In this document: piece by piece, positions 1 through 9,044 of the stretch
Numbering within the stretch: the stretch's first letter is position 1
How the letters are laid out: each line of letters begins with the position of its first letter
Origin: Umezawaea tangerina
GTDB lineage: Bacteria; Actinomycetota; Actinomycetes; Mycobacteriales; Pseudonocardiaceae
Assembly (NCBI RefSeq): GCF_003002815.1
Contig: NZ_PVTF01000006.1
Location: forward strand, 372,001 to 436,000
Length of the DNA: 64,000 nucleotides
Direction: 5' to 3'
Translations under genes and position numbers: made by a program
Notes under the pieces: generated by a model
What the model was told of the DNA's origin: nothing
Databases searched by the model: none
Seen by the model: the letters and a program-made list of their open reading frames with translations, nothing else

Positions 1-2158
1 CGCGGGCGATCTCCACCTCGCCCGCGTACTGGCTGTAGTAGATGCCCGAGGCGCCGTCGCTGTCGCCGAGCGCGTCGCTGCTGCCGACCGTGCGCTGGAA
101 GAACCGGGCGGAGGTGGCCACCCAGTTGGGGATCTGGTTGATGCCCGCGTCCGCGTCGGCCCCGCTGCGCAGGTAGTGCGACGGCTCCTCGTTGAGGATC
201 TCCTTGTCCGTCACGTAGACCACCTGGTCCGCGGTGCGGGACCGGTTCTGCAGCATGACGACGAGCTTCTGGTGGTCGAACGGGAAGCCGCGGAACTCGA
301 AGCCGCTCTTGAACCGCTCCCCCACCCGGTAGAGCCGGTAGGTGGCACCGTCCTCGGTGACGTCGCGCAGCGGCTGGCCCAGCTTCAGGTCGGGTTTGAC
401 GGCGTTGACGAACTGCACGTCGGCGGCCACCGGGTCGCCGGTGTAGCGCAGCCACAGGAAGAAGTCGACGAAGTAGGTGCCGTCCCTGGTGTCCAGGTCG
501 CGGACCTCGTTGAGGTTGATGCCGGTCGACACGACCTGGCGGCGGCTCAGGTACCGGTCGCCGATGGCGATGGCGCTGCCGTCGGCCAGCGCGGCGCGCA
601 GCGCGTCGGGCGACGGCGGCTCGTAGATCGTGAGCTGCACGGGCGCCGACACGAACCGCGTCCCGTCGCTCGTCACCACCGACACCGGCATCTGCGCGGA
701 GCCGGTGGGGGTGAAGTACAGCGGGCCGAGCAGCGCGGGGAACGAGTTCTTCTTGTCCTTCAACGCCGCCAGCCCGTCGCGCACCCGCCGCCGGTCCTGG
801 GCGCGACCGTCCTCGGTGAACACCAGACCGCGCGTGCCCATCGCGTGCAGGCCGACGTTGAGGGCCTGGCGGGCCGTCGCGGCCTGCCACAGCGGCTGTT
901 CCCCGTACCGGCGCTGGTAGTCCTCCGCCCACGCCAGCGCGGGGCCGGAGAGCGAGTCGTTGGCCAGCGGCGTGCCCACGTAAAGGTTCCGGGTGAGCTG
1001 CCCGGCCCGCCCGGTCTCGCGCTCGGCCTTCAGCAGCGCGTCGTGGAACGTCCGGGTGCCGAGCGTGGCGGTGCCGAGGATCGGCGCCTGCACACCCGCG
1101 GCGCGCAGGCCCTTCACGACCGCCAGGCCGCGTTCCTCGGTGGTGGCCAGCACGATCGGCGCCGTCGGGTCGACCGCGCGCACCACCTCGTCCACCGACG
1201 TGCCGTCGCCCAGCGGCAGCGTGGCCGAGGCGGAGCCGAGCTTGCCGAAGGAGTCCACGAAGGCCTCCCGGACCGACCGGCCCGACTCGTCGGTGTCGTG
1301 GACGAGGGTCGCCGACCTCGCGCCGAGCACGTCGGCGACGTAGACCGCGAGGAAGTCCGACTGGGTGCGGTTGCCGAACATGCTGCGGAAGTACCAGTCG
1401 CTGCTGTCGGTGATCCGCGACGACGTGGCCGAAGGGGTGATCGCGGGGATCCCGGCGCGCTGGTAGATCGGTGCGGCGGCCAGCGCGGTGTCGCTGCTGC
1501 CGTGCCCGACGACGTAGACCACCCGGTCCTCGCGGACGATCGTCTCCGCGATCCCGGTCGCCTTGCCCACGTCGTCGGCGTCGTCGTAGACCAGCAGCTC
1601 CACCGGGTGGCCGTTCACCCCACCGGCCTTGTTGACCGTCTCCAGGTGCATCCGCAGGGCGTTCTCCATGTGCCGCGACGCCGTCGCGGCCGGTCCGGTC
1701 ATGCCCGCGACCATCGCCACGTACACCGGATCCCCTTGCTGGCTGCCGGAAGCGGTCCACACGCCCAGCACGCCGAGCAGGACGACCACCACCGCGCCGA
1801 CCGCGACCCACGACCGCACGGCCCGGCGGCCGGACCGGCCGACGGCCGCGGGCTCCTCGGGCCGCGGCGGGTCGACCAGGTCCACCACCTCGGCGGGCGG
1901 CACCGGCGCGACGCCGTCCAACGCCCCGCGCGCCCGACCGGTGGCAGGGTCGGCCTCCAGCGCGAACGCCCGGTCGAGGCAGAACCTCCGCTCGCCGTCG
2001 TCGTCCACCAGTTCGGCCAACCACCGCCACGCGGGCTCGTACGCCTTGTCCGCCGCCAGCGCGGCGCCGAGCAGCTCGCGGGCGCGCGACGGGTCCGACT
2101 CCCGCGACTCGACCGCCCGCCGGGTGAGCGCGATGGAACTGTCGATTTCTTCCGGCAC
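1..2158 (-). CDS. Periplasmic-binding-protein / pentameric ligand-gated ion channel-like fusion, partial at its C-terminal end
   Basis: The start is GTG at 2158, with GGAGG about 8 nt upstream. About 719 residues are visible before the window edge. Residues 1-80 are a soluble, TPR-like helical stretch (ARELLGAALAADKAY), followed by a Pro/Glu linker and one strong membrane segment at about 114-136. Residues about 144-490 resemble a type I solute-binding domain of the branched-chain amino acid receptor family (VYVAMVAGMTGP, VNKAGGVNGHPVELLVYDD, ITPSATSS). From about residue 505 the chain changes to a beta-rich domain with TGINLNEVRDLDTRDGTYFVDFFLWLRYTG-type residues (about 540-570) and, near 625, FPFDHQKL. 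The latter matches the conserved F/Y-P-F-D-x-Q loop of prokaryotic Cys-loop-like channels (GLIC/ELIC family); no Cys pair is present, as is usual in bacteria. The expected four-helix pore lies outside the window. Fusions of binding domains to such channels are known in bacteria. Reading: a sensor-gated channel or receptor. Its ligand is unknown and pore formation is unproven here. Confidence 0.75.
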   Translation of the reverse strand, partial: MPEEIDSSIALTRRAVESRESDPSRARELLGAALAADKAYEPAWRWLAELVDDDGERRFCLDRAFALEADPATGRARGALDGVAPVPPAEVVDLVDPPRPEEPAAVGRSGRRAVRSWVAVGAVVVVLLGVLGVWTASGSQQGDPVYVAMVAGMTGPAATASRHMENALRMHLETVNKAGGVNGHPVELLVYDDADDVGKATGIAETIVREDRVVYVVGHGSSDTALAAAPIYQRAGIPAITPSATSSRITDSSDWYFRSMFGNRTQSDFLAVYVADVLGARSATLVHDTDESGRSVREAFVDSFGKLGSASATLPLGDGTSVDEVVRAVDPTAPIVLATTEERGLAVVKGLRAAGVQAPILGTATLGTRTFHDALLKAERETGRAGQLTRNLYVGTPLANDSLSGPALAWAEDYQRRYGEQPLWQAATARQALNVGLHAMGTRGLVFTEDGRAQDRRRVRDGLAALKDKKNSFPALLGPLYFTPTGSAQMPVSVVTSDGTRFVSAPVQLTIYEPPSPDALRAALADGSAIAIGDRYLSRRQVVSTGINLNEVRDLDTRDGTYFVDFFLWLRYTGDPVAADVQFVNAVKPDLKLGQPLRDVTEDGATYRLYRVGERFKSGFEFRGFPFDHQKLVVMLQNRSRTADQVVYVTDKEILNEEPSHYLRSGADADAGINQIPNWVATSARFFQRTVGSSDALGDSDGASGIYYSQYAGEVEIAR

Positions 2159-2338
2159 GGCAGACCTCCGAGGTCGATCACCAACCCGGCGGAGGGTAGA
2201 GATGTCGCGCGACCACGATCGATGATCCTTCGACCGGGTGACGGAAAGGCGGAAGCCGAACACCGTGGAACGACCTGTGCGCCTATTCGGGACCACTTCG
2301 GGAAATCGACGGAAAACGTGGACCGGCGCGACGCGGGA

Positions 2339-3352
2339 TCACCGCGCGGGCGTGCGCCGATCCGCCGAGGCGCGGTCGGTCAACCGCGGCGGCAACAACG
2401 TCAGCGGCGGCGTGGGAAGGCCGTCCAGCTTGCGCCGCAGCAGCGCCACGGCGTGGTTGCCCAGCTCCTCGGCCGGGATGTGCACCGACGTCAGCGGCGG
2501 GTTCATCAGCTCCGCGTAGTCGTCGGCGCACAGCGCCACCACGGCGATGTCCTCCGGGACCTTGCGCCCCAACGCGCGCAGGCTCTCCACCACCAGCGGC
2601 AGCCCGACCTCGTTGTGCACCACCAGCCCCGTGAGCGCCGGGTGGTCGTGCAGCAGGTCGGCCACCAGCCTCTGCACGGCGCCGCGGTCGTGCTCCAGCG
2701 GCGAGGTCGTCATCGCCACGCCGCGCCGCATGGCCGCCGCGCTGAACCCGGCCATCGCCCGGTGCGCGAACCCCGTGTCGCGGCGGTAGACCGCCCTCGG
2801 TGCGCCCAGAAGGCCCACGTACCGGTGCCCCAGATCCGCCAAGTGGTCTACTCCGCGCGCACCCGCCGCGGCGAAGTCCAGGTCCACGCACGTCAGTCCG
2901 GACGCGTCGGCGGGCACGCCGATCAGCACGGACGGCCGGTCGAGCTCGCGCAGCACGGGGACCCGCTCGTCGCGCATCTCCACGTCCATCACGATCAGGC
3001 CGTCCACGCGGGCGTTCTCCACCGCCCGCCGCAGGCTGTCCGGTCCGTCGTCGGCGGTCAGCAGCAGCACGTCCTGCCCGCCCCGCCTGGCCGCGCTGGC
3101 GACGGCGAGCAGGAACCTCGTCACCACCGGCATGTTCATGCCCTCGCGCAACGGCAGGACCAGCGCCAGCACGTCGTTGCGAGCCGTGTAGGCCGACCGC
3201 GCGGACACCGTGGCGTGGTAACCGAGCAGCCGCAGGCTCTCGCGCACCCGGACCTTCGTCGCCTCCGAGATCGAGCGCCTGCCCGTGAGGACGTACGACA
3301 CGGTGCTCGGCGCGACGCCGGCGTGCCGAGCCACTTCCGCGATGGTGACCAC
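2339..3352 (-). CDS. LacI-family transcriptional repressor of the pectin locus
   Basis: About 337 aa, the usual LacI/GalR length. GTG at 3352 is preferred because GAGGGG lies 6 nt upstream; a TTG at 3367 is the alternative. Residues 1-25 form the LacI helix-turn-helix (VTIAEVARHAGVAPSTVSYVL), followed by the hinge helix region (RRSISEATKVRVRESLRLLGY). From about residue 60 there is a periplasmic-binding-like effector domain (LVLPLREGMNMP, GLIVMDVEMRDERV, IAVVALCADDYAELMNPPLTSVHIPAEELG). It is transcribed away from the lyase-esterase operon that starts at 3711, so it is probably that operon's regulator, with a pectin breakdown product as inducer. The effector is inferred from position only. 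Confidence 0.93.
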   Translation of the reverse strand: MVTIAEVARHAGVAPSTVSYVLTGRRSISEATKVRVRESLRLLGYHATVSARSAYTARNDVLALVLPLREGMNMPVVTRFLLAVASAARRGGQDVLLLTADDGPDSLRRAVENARVDGLIVMDVEMRDERVPVLRELDRPSVLIGVPADASGLTCVDLDFAAAGARGVDHLADLGHRYVGLLGAPRAVYRRDTGFAHRAMAGFSAAAMRRGVAMTTSPLEHDRGAVQRLVADLLHDHPALTGLVVHNEVGLPLVVESLRALGRKVPEDIAVVALCADDYAELMNPPLTSVHIPAEELGNHAVALLRRKLDGLPTPPLTLLPPRLTDRASADRRTPAR

Positions 3353-3529
3353 GTCGTCCCCTCGCAACCGTCAGCTACCCAGTGATTGGTCTACCGCAGG
3401 CTACGGCCACAGCAGTCGGGTCCGTAAGCCCCAACCGGTAACCCGAAGCGGCCCGCCGAGACGGTTTCACCCTGACGGACGCCGGGCGACGGGCCCCGCG
3501 GATGTCGAGAAGAGCCCGCTGAACCCGTT

Positions 3530-3585: not shown

Positions 3586-3710
3586 TGGGCGCGACCATTC
3601 CATTGACGCAAAGCACACACATTCGTAATATTCGTTTCACCAGTCTGCACACCGTTCATATTTGTGAATACGGACAGCCTGAACACCCCATCACCGAAGG
3701 GCACACAGCC

Positions 3711-5942
3711 ATGCGGTTGACCAGGTACGCGCTCGCGCTGTCGACCGCGCTCGTCGTGGTCGGCGCACCGACCGCGGGCGCTTCGGCACCCGATCCCGGC
3801 AGGCAGGTCCTGCCCTCGGACGACGGTTGGGCGTCCAGTGGCACAGGCACCACGGGCGGTTCGGCCGCCACCGCCGAGCACGTGCACGTCGTGCGGAACC
3901 GGGCGGAGCTGGTCACCGCGCTCGCGGACACCGCGCTCGCGGACACCGCGCCGAAGATCGTGTACGTCGAGGGCGTCGTCGACGCGAACACCGACGCGAC
4001 CGGGAAGTCGTTGTCCTGCACGGACTACGCGACCGACGGCTACACGCTCGACGGCTACCTGGCGGCCTACGACCCGGCGGTGTGGGGCCGCGACCTGGAG
4101 CCGTCCGGGCCGCTGGAGGACGCGCGCGCGGCGTCGGCGAAGAGGCAGACCGCCACGATCGGCCTGCCGGTCACCGCGAACACCACGATCGTCGGGCGCG
4201 GCCGCGGCGCCGGGATCACCGGTGGCAGCCTGCGGATCCACGGCGTGGACAACGTGATCGTGCGGAACCTGACGTTCAGCGACACCCGCGACTGCTTCCC
4301 GCAGTGGGATCCCAACGACAACTCGCCCGGCGAGGCGCCCGGCAACTGGAACTCCCTCTACGACTCCGTGTCGCTGCAAGGCGCGACGCACGTCTGGGTC
4401 GAGGGGAACACGTTCACCGACCAGCCGAACCCGGACAGCGCGGCGCCGGTGTACTTCGACCGGCCCTACCAGAGGCACGACGGGCAGCTCGACATCACCA
4501 ACGGCTCCGACCTCGTCACGGTGTCGCGCAACCTGTTCACCGACCACGACAAGACGATGCTGATCGGCTCGTCGAACAGCTCGACCGTCGACCCCGGCAA
4601 GCTGCGCGTCTCGGTGCACCACAACGTCTTCCGCGGCACGCAGGAGCGCTCGCCGCGGGTCCGCTTCGGCCAGGTGCACGTCTACGACAACCTCTACGAG
4701 CCGCGCGCGGACCTCGTCTACAACTGGGGTGTCGGCGTGAGCTCGAAGATCTACGCGGAGAACAACTACTTCCGGCTGCGCGAGGGGGTGAAGCCCGAGC
4801 TGGCCCTCTACAACTGGGGCGGCACCGCGATCACCGAACGCGGCACGCTCGTCGACGGCAGGCCCACCAGCCTGCTCGCGGCGTTCAACGCGGCCAACCC
4901 GACCAAGGTGCTCGGCGACGACGTGGGCTGGACGCCGACGTTGAACCGGGGCCTGGAGCCCGCGTGGCGGATCGCCCGGCTGAAGGCGGGTGCCCAGGCG
5001 GCGCCGAAGCGGATCAGGGTGGAGGGCGTCGGCGAGTACGCCACCGTGCAGTCCGCGATCGACGCGGCGCCCGCGGGTGGCACGGTCACGTTGCAGAGGG
5101 GCGTCTACCACGAGGTCGTCACCGTTCCCGCGAGCAAGACCGGGCTGGTCCTGCGCGGTGCCACCGGGAAGGCGTCGGACGTGGTCATCGACTTCGACAA
5201 CGCCTCCGGCACGAAGAAGCCCGACGGCACCACCTACGGCACGACCGGCAGCGCGACGGCGACCATCGCGGCCGACGACTTCACCGCCCGCGACCTGACG
5301 TTCCGCAACTCCTTCGACCGGGCGGCGCACCCGGAGATCACCGCCACGCAGGCGGTGGCGATGAAGGCCACCGGCGACCGGATGCTGTTCGACCGGGTCA
5401 CCTTCCTGAGCCACCAGGACACGCTCTACGCGGACAGCCCCTCGGCCGCCACGCGCGCCCGCCAGTACTACCGGAACTGCTCGATCAGCGGGGACGTGGA
5501 CTTCATGTTCGGCCGCGCCACGGCGGTGTTCGACCACGCGACCATCACGGCGCTGGACCGCGGCGGCAACCCCAACGGCTACCTCACCGCCGCGAGCACC
5601 AAGCGCGACAACCCCTTCGGGTTCCTGGTCGTCAACAGCACGGTCGTCAGCTCCGCCAAGGCCGCCACCTACTACCTCGGCAGGCCCTGGCACCCTGGCA
5701 ACGACCCCGACTCGATCGCGCAGGTCGTCTTCCGGGAGACCGTGCTGCCCGCCGCGGTCAAGTCGACGCCGTGGACGGACATGTCCGGCTTCTCCTGGAA
5801 GGACGCCAGGTTCGCCGAGTACCACAACACCGGCGCGGGCTCGGGCACCGGGACGGACCGACCGCAGCTCTCGGCCGCCGACGCGGCGAAGTACACCGTG
5901 CGGGCCTACCTCGCGGGCGGCGACGGCTGGAACCCCGCATGA
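3711..5942 (+). CDS. Secreted pectate lyase (PL1) - pectin methylesterase (CE8) fusion
   Basis: 743 aa. The ATG at 3711 opens a Sec signal peptide (MRLTRYALALSTALVVVGAP...AGASA), so the upstream extension of the open frame is rejected. Residues about 30-430 form a parallel beta-helix pectate lyase: DGQLDI, DHDKTMLIGS and the RSPRVRFGQVHVYDN segment carrying the catalytic Arg. Residues about 440-740 form a pectinesterase with the family signatures HQDTLYADS, DFMFGRATAVF (catalytic Asp) and YYLGRPW. The lyase cuts de-esterified galacturonan by beta-elimination while the esterase removes methyl groups, so one exported chain carries both the demethylation and cleavage steps. The stop overlaps the next start (ATGA at 5939-5942), which places it as first gene of the uptake operon. 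Confidence 0.95.
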   Translation: MRLTRYALALSTALVVVGAPTAGASAPDPGRQVLPSDDGWASSGTGTTGGSAATAEHVHVVRNRAELVTALADTALADTAPKIVYVEGVVDANTDATGKSLSCTDYATDGYTLDGYLAAYDPAVWGRDLEPSGPLEDARAASAKRQTATIGLPVTANTTIVGRGRGAGITGGSLRIHGVDNVIVRNLTFSDTRDCFPQWDPNDNSPGEAPGNWNSLYDSVSLQGATHVWVEGNTFTDQPNPDSAAPVYFDRPYQRHDGQLDITNGSDLVTVSRNLFTDHDKTMLIGSSNSSTVDPGKLRVSVHHNVFRGTQERSPRVRFGQVHVYDNLYEPRADLVYNWGVGVSSKIYAENNYFRLREGVKPELALYNWGGTAITERGTLVDGRPTSLLAAFNAANPTKVLGDDVGWTPTLNRGLEPAWRIARLKAGAQAAPKRIRVEGVGEYATVQSAIDAAPAGGTVTLQRGVYHEVVTVPASKTGLVLRGATGKASDVVIDFDNASGTKKPDGTTYGTTGSATATIAADDFTARDLTFRNSFDRAAHPEITATQAVAMKATGDRMLFDRVTFLSHQDTLYADSPSAATRARQYYRNCSISGDVDFMFGRATAVFDHATITALDRGGNPNGYLTAASTKRDNPFGFLVVNSTVVSSAKAATYYLGRPWHPGNDPDSIAQVVFRETVLPAAVKSTPWTDMSGFSWKDARFAEYHNTGAGSGTGTDRPQLSAADAAKYTVRAYLAGGDGWNPA

Positions 5943-6856: not shown

Positions 6857-7737
6857 CCGAGACGCTGGTCCGCGAGACCGTCGCCGAGCCCCCGGACCGC
6901 GCCGCTCCCCCGCGCCGCAAGCGCCGGGAGGACCCCGGCCGCGGCTGGCGGCTGTACCTGCCGCTGGGGCTGTACCTGCTGTTCACGCTGGTGCCGTTCT
7001 ACTGGATGCTCGTCTTCGCCTTCCGCCCCACCGGGTCCACGGCGCTGGTGCCGTGGCCGATCACGTTCGAGCACTTCGACACGGTGTGGAACGACCTGGG
7101 CTTCGGGCTGTTCTTCCGCAACAGCCTGCTGATCGGCGTCGGCACGCTCGGCGTGGTCAGCGTCCTGGCGCTCGCGGGCGGGTACGCGTTGGCGCGCTTC
7201 CGGTTCCGCGGCCAGCGGGTCTTCCTGCTCGCCCTGCTGTGCACGCAGTTCATCCCCGGCGCCATGATGCTGATCCCGCTGTTCGTGATCTTCAAGGGCG
7301 CCGGGCTGCTCAACAGCCTCACCGGCCTGGTCGTCGCGGACACGGCGTTCCAGCTGCCGCTGGCGCTGATCCTGATGAGCGGGTTCGTGCGCAACGTCCC
7401 GGTGGAGCTGGAAGAGGCCGCGATGGTCGACGGCTGCACGCGGCTGCGGGCGTTCTTCGCGATCACGCTGCCGCAGCTGCGGCCCGCGCTGGTTGCCGTC
7501 GGCTCGTTCGCGTTCATCGGGGCGTGGAACAACTTCCTGTTCGCGCTGATGTTCGCGAGCAGGCAGGACAAGTTCACCCTGCCGGTCGGGCTCAGCTACG
7601 CCCTCGGCGAGTTCAACACCGACTTCGGCGCGCTGGCCGCCGGTGGCGTGGTCGCCGCCGTGCCGGTCGTGCTCGTGTTCGCCGTCGTCCAGAGGTTCCT
7701 GGTGCAGGGCTTGAGCGCTGGTGCGGTCAAGGGATGA
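6853..7737 (+). CDS. Sugar ABC transporter permease, MalG/UgpE-like
   Basis: 294 aa. The ATG at 6853 overlaps the preceding stop. A hydrophilic basic N-terminus (PRRKRREDPGRGWR) is followed by six membrane segments. The EAA-loop is ELEEAAMVDGCTRLRAFFAITLPQLRP (about residues 182-208). It pairs with the upstream permease to form the membrane channel of the predicted oligogalacturonide importer. The stop overlaps an ATG at 7734, but the better start of the next gene is 7755. Confidence 0.93.
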   Translation: MTETLVRETVAEPPDRAAPPRRKRREDPGRGWRLYLPLGLYLLFTLVPFYWMLVFAFRPTGSTALVPWPITFEHFDTVWNDLGFGLFFRNSLLIGVGTLGVVSVLALAGGYALARFRFRGQRVFLLALLCTQFIPGAMMLIPLFVIFKGAGLLNSLTGLVVADTAFQLPLALILMSGFVRNVPVELEEAAMVDGCTRLRAFFAITLPQLRPALVAVGSFAFIGAWNNFLFALMFASRQDKFTLPVGLSYALGEFNTDFGALAAGGVVAAVPVVLVFAVVQRFLVQGLSAGAVKG

Positions 7738-7754
7738 GTACACGGAGGAGAACC

Positions 7755-9044
7755 ATGAGGATCCGCGGCGCGTTGGCGGTCGCCCTGTCCCTGGGTCTGG
7801 TGCTGACCGGCTGTTCGGACGCGGGCGGCGGCGGCGGCAACGCCACGATCACGTTCTGGGACAACAACGGCGGCCCCGGCCGCACGCCGATCTACGAGGA
7901 GCTGATCAAGCGGTTCGAGGCGGCGAACCCGACCATCAAGGTCGAGTACGTCGGTGTGCCGAGCGCGTCGGTGCAGCAGAAGTACGACACCGCGATCGCG
8001 GGCGGGTCGACCCCGGACGTCGGCGGCGTGACCACGTCCTACCTGGCCAACATGATCGGCCAGGACGCGCTCGAACCGCTCGACGAGCGGGTGGACTCCG
8101 GCCCGCTCAAGGGGAAGCTGCTGCCGAACCTGGTCGAGACCGTCCGCCAGACCGCGCCGGACAACAAGCTGTACTCGCTGCCGTCGTCGGGGAACCTGGA
8201 CGTGATCTGGTACCGCAAGGACTGGTTCGAGCAGGCCGGGCTGACCCCGCCGACGACGTGGGACGAGCTGGTCGACCGGGCCACCAAGCTGACCGACGTC
8301 GGCCGGAACCGCTACGGCTACACGATCCGCGGCGGTGCGGGCTCGGTGTTCCAGCTGCTCACCGAGGCCTACGCGTACTCGGGTGTGGAGAAGTTCTTCG
8401 ACGGCACCACGAGCACCGTCAAGGACCCGGCCAACGCCGAGCTGATCGGCAAGGTCGCCGCGCTGTACAAGAAGGCGACACCCGAGGCCGACGTGAACAA
8501 CAACTACACGCAGATGGTGGCCCAGTTCACCGGCGGCTCGGTCGCGATGATGCACCACAACCTCGGCTCCTATTCCGACGTCACCAAGGCACTGGGCACC
8601 GACGAGGTCGGCGCGATCACGCTGCCGGTCGGGCCGTCGGGCAGGAAGACCGTCGTGCCCAACCCGACCGACGGGTTCGCCGTCTTCAAGAACAGCAAGA
8701 ACCCCGACGCGGCCTGGAAGTTCGCCGAGTTCCTGGTGTCGCGGGAGAGCAACAGCTACTGGAACGAGAAGGTCGGCCAGATCCCGGCCAACACCGACGT
8801 GCGCTCGGAGGCGTGGATCGAGAAGAACCAACCCGTGAAGATGGCGCTTGGTGTGCTGGAGGACAAGGCGACCAGGATCGTGCCCGCCCCGGTGTACCTG
8901 CCGGAGTACTCGTCGATCACCAAGACCGACAGCGAGCCCGCCTACCAGAAGGTGCTGCTGGGCCAGCTGTCCCCGCAGGAGTTCCTGACCGGGCTCGCCG
9001 ACAAGCTCACCACCGCCCAGCAGGAGTGGGAGGAGCGGAAGTGA
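7755..9044 (+). CDS. Sugar ABC transporter substrate-binding lipoprotein
   Basis: 429 aa. ATG at 7755 is chosen over the in-frame ATG at 7734 because CGGAGGAG ends 4 nt before it. The N-terminus is a lipoprotein signal (MRIRGALAVALSLGLVLTGC; lipobox LTGC with Cys at 20). A family-1 solute-binding fold follows: TITFWDNNGGPGR, FEAANPTIKVEYVGV, GGSTPDVGGV, LVSRESNSYWNEKVGQIP. It would be anchored outside the membrane to deliver pectin fragments to the two permeases upstream. It overlaps the next gene by 4 nt (GTGA). Confidence 0.94.
   Translation: MRIRGALAVALSLGLVLTGCSDAGGGGGNATITFWDNNGGPGRTPIYEELIKRFEAANPTIKVEYVGVPSASVQQKYDTAIAGGSTPDVGGVTTSYLANMIGQDALEPLDERVDSGPLKGKLLPNLVETVRQTAPDNKLYSLPSSGNLDVIWYRKDWFEQAGLTPPTTWDELVDRATKLTDVGRNRYGYTIRGGAGSVFQLLTEAYAYSGVEKFFDGTTSTVKDPANAELIGKVAALYKKATPEADVNNNYTQMVAQFTGGSVAMMHHNLGSYSDVTKALGTDEVGAITLPVGPSGRKTVVPNPTDGFAVFKNSKNPDAAWKFAEFLVSRESNSYWNEKVGQIPANTDVRSEAWIEKNQPVKMALGVLEDKATRIVPAPVYLPEYSSITKTDSEPAYQKVLLGQLSPQEFLTGLADKLTTAQQEWEERK

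Follow-up and report, generated by a model that had tools for sequence, protein, structure and literature searches.

A candidate pentameric ligand-gated channel subunit in Umezawaea tangerina that joins a TPR-like head, an anchor helix and a periplasmic-binding domain

A 64,000-nucleotide stretch of the genome of the actinomycete Umezawaea tangerina (the window, placed at G000:C6:372001-436000) carries at its left edge a gene whose product is, by the defining features open to sequence tests, a subunit of a pentameric ligand-gated ion channel (pLGIC). In this protein a head resembling tetratricopeptide repeats (TPR) and an anchor helix come before a type I periplasmic-binding protein (PBP) domain, the extracellular beta domain of a pLGIC (ligand-binding domain, LBD) and the channel domain proper (transmembrane domain, TMD). 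All five parts are present in this order in 22 of 22 aligned copies, namely the window copy and 21 relatives, every one of them full-length (the long copy of genome G953 was left out). The present analysis establishes the domain order, the family identity of the protein, its conservation and the selection acting on it. The fusion of a binding domain to a pLGIC is not new as such; what is novel, compared with known fusions, is the conserved TPR-like and presumably cytoplasmic head with its retained anchor helix, together with a sensor pair held in common with MscS pores.

The channel gene is a single minus-strand open reading frame that runs from window position 2158 to the left edge (1..2158; residues 1-719 are whole and residue 720 straddles the edge). 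In the 15 kb around that edge that were read for the gene end, it continues for a further 380 bases to a stop, which gives 845 codons and a protein of 845 amino acids (whole gene G000:C6:371621-374158, equivalent to L002:6621-9158, minus strand). The likely start, read from the sequence, is a GTG at 2156-2158 (minus strand), with a GGAGG ribosome-binding site upstream of it at 2165..2169; this agrees with an earlier sequence-only reading of the window, which had ended a single-chain feature at 2158 and quoted from it two motifs, TGINLNEVRDLD and FPFDHQKL, both of which are read in the translated protein. A long plus-strand frame overlaps the same DNA. Differences between orthologues are most numerous at minus-strand codon position 3 in 24 of 25 region-by-pair comparisons, and the minus-strand frame is therefore the coding one.

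Identification of the channel draws on several profile searches. The Pfam family Neur_chan_memb matches residues 730-802 (E 1.1e-7; 32.8 bits against a cut-off of 28.1), and is found at E 0.01 in 11 of the 12 members of alignment A1, the twelfth presumably being the window row, cut before M1; the NCBIfam models LIC and LGIC_1 match far below their cut-offs. The LBD (residues 517-718; window 5..610, minus strand) was delimited by phmmer and by a beta-domain-only profile (A2) run against the PDB. Since this profile finds GLIC from the beta domain alone (whole-sequence E 1.9e-8; best single stretch 4e-5), the channel call is independent of the hydrophobic helices. When the membrane domain is added to the profile, 186 distinct PDB sequences score E 1e-5 or below (best E 3.6e-17); the 60 listed comprise GLIC and GLIC chimeras along with GABA-A and GluCl chains. 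In phmmer searches of PDB sequences, the middle of the protein finds LivJ-like proteins, and GLIC and GLIC chimeras match residues 598-843, in some cases 543-843. Helices M1-M4 (residues 719-845; L002:6624-7004, minus strand) lie to the left of the window edge, only the start of the pre-M1 Arg-Asp and M1 region falling inside it (1..4, minus strand). A hydropathy scan flagged three of the four C-terminal helices, M2 being the one passed over.

The residues that characterize the superfamily are likewise kept. Invariant in all 22 copies are the Pro-loop FPFD (residues 625-628; window 275..286, minus strand), Q630, the pre-M1 Arg-Asp, and in M1 K727, N728, L730, P731 and L732. In M2 the invariant positions are G4', T6' (T759), I8', L9' (L762), A12', V13', L15', V18', T19' and L22', with prime numbers set on an alignment to a GLIC-GlyR chimera; position 2' is Ser in 20 copies and Ala in two. 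PMC4795631 describes as a pLGIC hallmark an invariant Pro in the beta6-beta7 loop together with a salt bridge that joins a residue of this loop to one of the beta10-M1 linker, and gives M2 9' as Leu in 75% and Phe in 13% of sequences. P626, D628 and R719 are present in all 22 copies, D628 and R719 would form the salt-bridge pair, and with Leu at 9' throughout the protein has the usual feature of that position. There is no cysteine in residues 511-718, and so no disulphide closing the beta6-beta7 loop.

The sequence-only reading, which had proposed a type I binding domain, preceded by one membrane helix, fused to a Cys-loop-like channel domain, is largely supported. A binding domain and a hydrophobic helix (118-136) ahead of it are found; the beta-domain profile matches the extracellular domain of GLIC, a comparison that it had suggested as a check; Neur_chan_memb follows; and the four helices that it expected to the left, after about residue 720, appear in both of the structure models described below. 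Its term "Cys-loop-like" holds for membership of the pLGIC superfamily, and not in the strict sense of a Cys-loop receptor, the beta domain being without cysteine.

The PBP domain spans residues 144-510 (window 629..1729, minus strand) and is followed by a short linker, at about residues 511-520, to the beta domain. Its type I assignment comes from Peripla_BP_6 (PF13458; residues 144-498, E 9.4e-41; 141 bits against a curated cut-off of 31.7), from PDB matches to 3hut, 4gnr and Atu2422 (3ipc), and from Foldseek. Positions 79, 102 and 150, numbered on the 3ipc alignment from the PDB search, correspond to the amino-acid contact residues of LivJ-type binding proteins. The equivalent of 79 is Ser or Thr in 22 of 22 copies, and that of 102 is Thr in 10, Ser in eight and Gly in four (Thr or Ser in 18). 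The domain resembles the LivJ/Atu2422-type proteins of PF13458 in its clamshell and in these two positions; it differs in being part of a channel chain and in the replacement of the Y150 equivalent in 15 of 22 copies. An amino-acid-like ligand is plausible on these residues, and the replacement at 150 makes an ordinary amino acid unsure.

The head (residues 1-98; window 1865..2158, minus strand) is aligned in all 22 copies, with 29-91% identity to the window copy among the aligned copies and 13 invariant columns in the 22 rows, including W41 and W43 (numbered within the aligned piece). We name it TPR-like only. A profile of residues 4-98 has as its best PDB match a chain of SPINDLY (E 7e-4), and predicted structure gives it helices. 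No TPR model passes its Pfam cut-off: TPR_19 matches residues 20-50 of the window protein at E 0.036 (14.8 bits against 25), and relatives L048 and L046 reach 19.9 bits (TPR_19) and 22.2 bits (TPR_14, cut-off 23.5). A search of the organism's own genome for a second head or beta domain returned, at E 1 or better, the channel gene alone.

After the head comes the anchor helix, TM0 (about residues 116-136; window 1751..1813, minus strand), recognized from a hydropathy peak at 118-136 (mean 2.51), from a helix in the structure model and from its alignment in the 22 copies. It is preceded by the basic residues RSGRRAVRSW and separated from the PBP domain by about seven residues in the window protein; the spacing is likewise short in the other rows of the alignment, judged by eye. 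The basic residues ahead of TM0, with RKRLAGTGHEVAERRLSKAAR of the M3-M4 loop, fit a topology in which head and loop would both lie inside the cell.

Selection was estimated as the ratio of nonsynonymous to synonymous substitution rates (dN/dS) by the Nei-Gojobori method (NG86), per region, in five orthologue pairs. The values are 0.15-0.43 for the head, 0.29-0.40 for the PBP domain, 0.16-0.39 for the LBD and 0.08-0.43 for the TMD, so that head, PBP, beta and membrane domains are under purifying selection; the beta domain is 38-96% identical to the window copy among the aligned copies. The anchor and linkers give 0.43-1.07, and the anchor stretch is under little constraint beyond its hydrophobicity. 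The head is most likely both translated and constrained.

Structure models were built with AlphaFold2 (AF2) on the orthologue L024 from Umezawaea endophytica (12 alignment rows), for the full length and for the beta and membrane piece; L024 shares 87% identity with the window protein across the C-terminal 335 residues and 75% across the part that lies inside the window. The full-length model has a mean predicted local distance difference test score (pLDDT) of 61 and a predicted TM-score (pTM) of 0.46, with blocks at 70-90 in the head, mostly 66-93 in the PBP domain, mostly below 50 in the beta domain and 39-58 in the membrane domain; its first 78 residues form five helices. In Foldseek, the 50 matches listed for this model (of 1180 at E 0.001) are, apart from 7ylt with its uninformative title, either substrate-binding proteins or sensors derived from such proteins. 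The LBD and TMD model has 275 matches at E 0.001 or better, and every one of the 50 chains listed is a pLGIC, which lends weak support to a pLGIC fold. The fold assignment of the beta and membrane domains comes from sequence profiles and invariant residues, not from AF2.

The pair formed by the PBP and beta domains also seems to occur on a different pore. A tblastn search of 72,556 plasmid records with the channel part returned nine matches, all from Azospirillum. Two of these were read (L052:4702-7770 and L053:4414-7755), and each contains a Peripla_BP_6 domain, a region matching the beta domain and an MscS pore (MS_channel_2nd, E 4e-18 and 1e-15); a second protein on the B510 plasmid (L061:1909-5373) has the same layout with a cyclic-nucleotide-binding domain at its end (plasmids NC_013856.1 and NZ_CP012915.1). 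The beta-domain profile, of 209 positions, gives 79.5 bits to L052 (positions 6-157), 86.0 to L053 (6-136) and 47.5 to L061 (25-136), compared with 55.5 to 35.2 bits for four short plain channels and nothing at E 10 for 140 shuffles and seven reversals of seven other proteins; hhalign of A2 against L052 and L053 reaches 99.4% over 135 columns. With the PBP profile of the 22 channels, the three MscS fusions score 177-241 bits, and none of the ten other listed PBP-like proteins exceeds 75; conversely, a profile of the three fusions scores the 22 channels at 99-236 bits and nine other proteins tested at no more than 80. In a tree of PBP domains, the 22 channels lie on one side of a branch (98/94), the long branches flagged by the program being mostly outside rows. 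From profiles and tree, the PBP and beta domains appear to travel as a pair whose pore has been swapped at least once; the retention of this pair in the MscS fusions speaks for the two domains acting as a single sensor, and the sensor looks portable between pores.

The Azospirillum proteins resemble the window channels in a PBP and LBD nearer to theirs than those of the other PBP-like proteins tested, and in an N-terminal hydrophobic stretch, seen by eye. They differ in their MscS pore and in having no Pfam TPR match at the limits used. Two results count against the portable sensor: the FPFD motif is replaced in the MscS fusions, and a profile of the L052 and L053 beta region (A4) run against the PDB has a best E of 0.9, which speaks against recognizing a pLGIC LBD there from that sequence itself. 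The claim of an LBD in Azospirillum goes through the A2 bridge, whose coverage does not exceed positions 6-157 of 209; the remainder was matched by eye. In Azospirillum sp. B510, the PBP-LBD-MscS gene of L052 is followed on the same strand (L052:7767-12158) by genes with the annotations ATP-binding cassette protein, HlyD-family type I secretion adaptor and TolC-family protein.

We consider it reasonably probable that the window protein is a homopentameric pLGIC subunit with five membrane helices, gated by its PBP domain and carrying a cytoplasmic head that can bind a partner; the topology, the pentamer, the PBP as trigger and the role of the head are what we infer here. The TPR-like head would stay in the cytoplasm, and TM0 would cross the membrane as an uncleaved signal-anchor helix. 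Outside, an amino-acid-type clamshell would begin some seven residues past TM0 and pass through its short linker into the pLGIC beta-sandwich, with M1-M4 forming the pore, M2 lining it and L9' as the likely gate. A pLGIC beta-sandwich has its top far from the membrane, and the linker from TM0 is short; from these linker lengths and the known folds, the PBP would probably lie alongside the sandwich, with one end fixed close to the membrane and the other to the apex. Closure of the clamshell on a small solute could then exert a pull on both the sandwich and TM0 and so change the opening of the pore. The flux, movement of TM0, or both might be read inside the cell, where the head could bind a partner.

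Several points weigh against this. M2 0' is Pro in 14 copies, the window protein included, Arg in five, and Ala, Gly or a gap in one each, compared with a basic residue in 79% of the set reported in PMC4795631; of the E-[RK] and A-[RK] selectivity motifs described in PMC549065, the window protein has neither. With 0' atypical and both motifs absent, ion selectivity is unreadable from the sequence. The AF2 model of the beta and membrane piece has a mean pLDDT of 46 and a pTM of 0.29, and the TM-scores of the LBD and TMD model to the listed pLGICs are 0.22-0.43. The Y150 equivalent is Ser in 12 copies, again including the window protein, Tyr in seven and Asp in three. When the open reading frames (ORFs) of the 22 loci were clustered, no conserved neighbour gene pointed to a pathway. 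Finally, GLIC is not known to need a PBP, so that the PBP here might only tune the channel.

A relay is one such alternative: the PBP would only gather solute, a classical site between sandwiches would open the pore, and TM0 and the head would merely anchor the chain. This is close to the proposal made in 2004 for fused bacterial pLGICs (PMC549065), and in all five pairs dN/dS is lower for the LBD than for the PBP domain. We nevertheless think it unlikely, because the same PBP and LBD pair sits on Azospirillum MscS pores, where a pLGIC-type site of five sandwiches would not be expected, and because the conservation of the head would exceed the needs of a mere anchor. That conservation, in 22 of 22 copies, would also suit a non-conducting or mainly signalling receptor, its pLGIC body a scaffold passing the state of the ligand to the head and on to a cytoplasmic partner, as would the scarcity of basic residues at M2 0' (five of 22). 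The pore-facing positions are kept as in a working pore, however (Ser or Ala at 2', and T6', L9' and V13' in every copy), and there is no conserved partner gene nearby; this reading seems to us quite improbable.

Two further explanations concern the gene rather than the mechanism. If translation began downstream, or if TM0 were a cleaved signal peptide, the protein would be an ordinary PBP-pLGIC. The TPR models are below their Pfam cut-offs in the window protein, and DNA this rich in GC has many GTG codons. Yet the ribosome-binding site stands at the upstream GTG, the head is kept in all copies with its 13 invariant columns and low dN/dS, and about 115 residues precede the hydrophobic stretch, which far exceeds the n-region of a signal peptide, so we regard this as very improbable. 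That the gene is decaying or mis-assembled and without function is scarcely credible: occurrence is patchy, genome G151 retains no more than a short remnant and the G883 copy is split between two frames, but the 22 intact frames run to 833-865 codons from head to end, with dN/dS below 1.

Several known systems can be set beside the homopentameric, PBP-gated subunit preferred here. According to PMC549065, PBP-I fusions to pLGICs have been known since 2004 from the alphaproteobacteria Magnetospirillum magnetotacticum and Bradyrhizobium japonicum, and the bacterial forms of acetylcholine receptor-type ligand-gated channel (ART-LGIC) have a signal peptide ahead of any extra domains and, in all cases, a short cytoplasmic M3-M4 loop. 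The PBP-I::ART-LGIC proteins have in common with the window protein a PBP-I domain before the pLGIC LBD and four helices; compared by description only, their PBP-I lies between signal peptide and LBD, whereas the window protein begins with head and retained anchor. GLIC has the same LBD, M1-M4, Pro-loop, pre-M1 Arg and M1 Pro, but the chains matched, of about 310-330 residues, leave no room for a PBP or head, and they are 16-19% identical to the L024 model in the structure alignments listed. DeCLIC likewise has an accessory domain outside, before the LBD; the lobes of its N-terminal domain are calcium-binding jelly-roll folds rather than a PBP, and the part of PMC12664993 seen mentions neither PBP nor head. 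The same part describes the N-terminal domains of prokaryotic pLGICs as little understood, and chain ends were excluded from the analysis of PMC4795631. A fifth helix is described for no pLGIC in the available parts of PMC549065, PMC4795631 and PMC12664993, and open-access titles and abstract starts yielded no pLGIC with a TPR or cytoplasmic head and no PBP-LBD-MscS protein.

It is possible, and we put it forward tentatively, that PBP-I and the pLGIC beta domain form a portable sensor that has passed in evolution among unrelated pores (pLGIC in actinobacteria, MscS and cyclic-nucleotide-binding MscS in Azospirillum), and from which actinobacteria have made a two-sided receptor, its opening under the combined control of an outside solute and an inside partner of the head, coupled by way of the fifth helix. 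The analysis suggests an actinobacterial relative of nerve-receptor channels, with a nutrient-sensor domain outside and a helical head inside, that could read both sides of the membrane. The extra part seems to sit at the other end of the chain, which makes intracellular coupling of a bacterial pLGIC directly testable. The clamshell offers a way of finding what orphan bacterial pLGICs bind, and the MscS versions a natural experiment with one sensor on two unrelated pores.

The architecture is patchily distributed. Among 200 genomes of the family, searched with the C-terminal 335 residues at E 0.001, 14 have a match and 12, the organism's own included, have the full architecture (seven read in their own stretches, five through matching loci of a scan of genome contigs); the other two are the G151 remnant (L035:9297-9602) and a short plain channel (G017). 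The class scan matched 10 of 394 genomes: the organism's own and G045 again, four further full-length copies (G619, G697, G820 and G876), the split copy of G883 (L050:5283-6340), short channels in G808 and G947, and a false match in G685 (E 7e-4), rejected as a MurJ flippase. The frames of G017, G808 and G947 (351-476 codons, without PBP) were also rejected as full architectures. The scan of genome contigs gave 11 loci, five from Saccharothrix and one each from Lentzea, Solihabitans, Amycolatopsis, Umezawaea, 'Nocardia' sp. NRRL S-836 and Streptomyces sp. G44, and in the genus of G697 two of 11 genomes match (G697 and G953). A search with PF02932 in 396 genomes of the phylum found three with a match, of which one, the organism's own, passed the cut-off, a count that is too low, as the true relative L034 scores 26.7 against 28.1. 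One A2 scan of viral contigs gave 33 pattern matches and no relative. In some lineages the channel gene appears to be in decay. Short plain pLGIC-like proteins occur in other actinobacteria (L063:3079-4152, minus strand; L036:7779-8831, plus; L042:1303-2730, minus; L043:910-2058, minus), and those of L036, L042 and L043 match the beta-domain profile A2, though they have no Pfam pLGIC match at E 0.1.

Around the channel gene, the recurring neighbours among the 25 largest ORF clusters printed come from six loci only (five Saccharothrix and G171); the clustering also contained shadow frames. Other PBP fusions appear to be present elsewhere: long frames at L065:145-2673 (G000:C5) and L081:1-2628 (Azospirillum), read over 843 and 876 codons, have Peripla_BP_6 in their second half, and their first 450-500 residues, without a Pfam match at E 0.001, would be a partner unknown to Pfam. 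Control of the channel by a LacI-driven pectin response was considered and rejected, a LacI gene lying upstream in one of 20 other loci. In the window itself, a single chain with pectate lyase and pectinesterase domains (3603-5942, plus strand) adjoins the LacI-type regulator (2339-3367, minus strand) and an SBP_bac_1 binding protein (within 7053-9044, plus strand), and this region looks like a pectin-use cluster.

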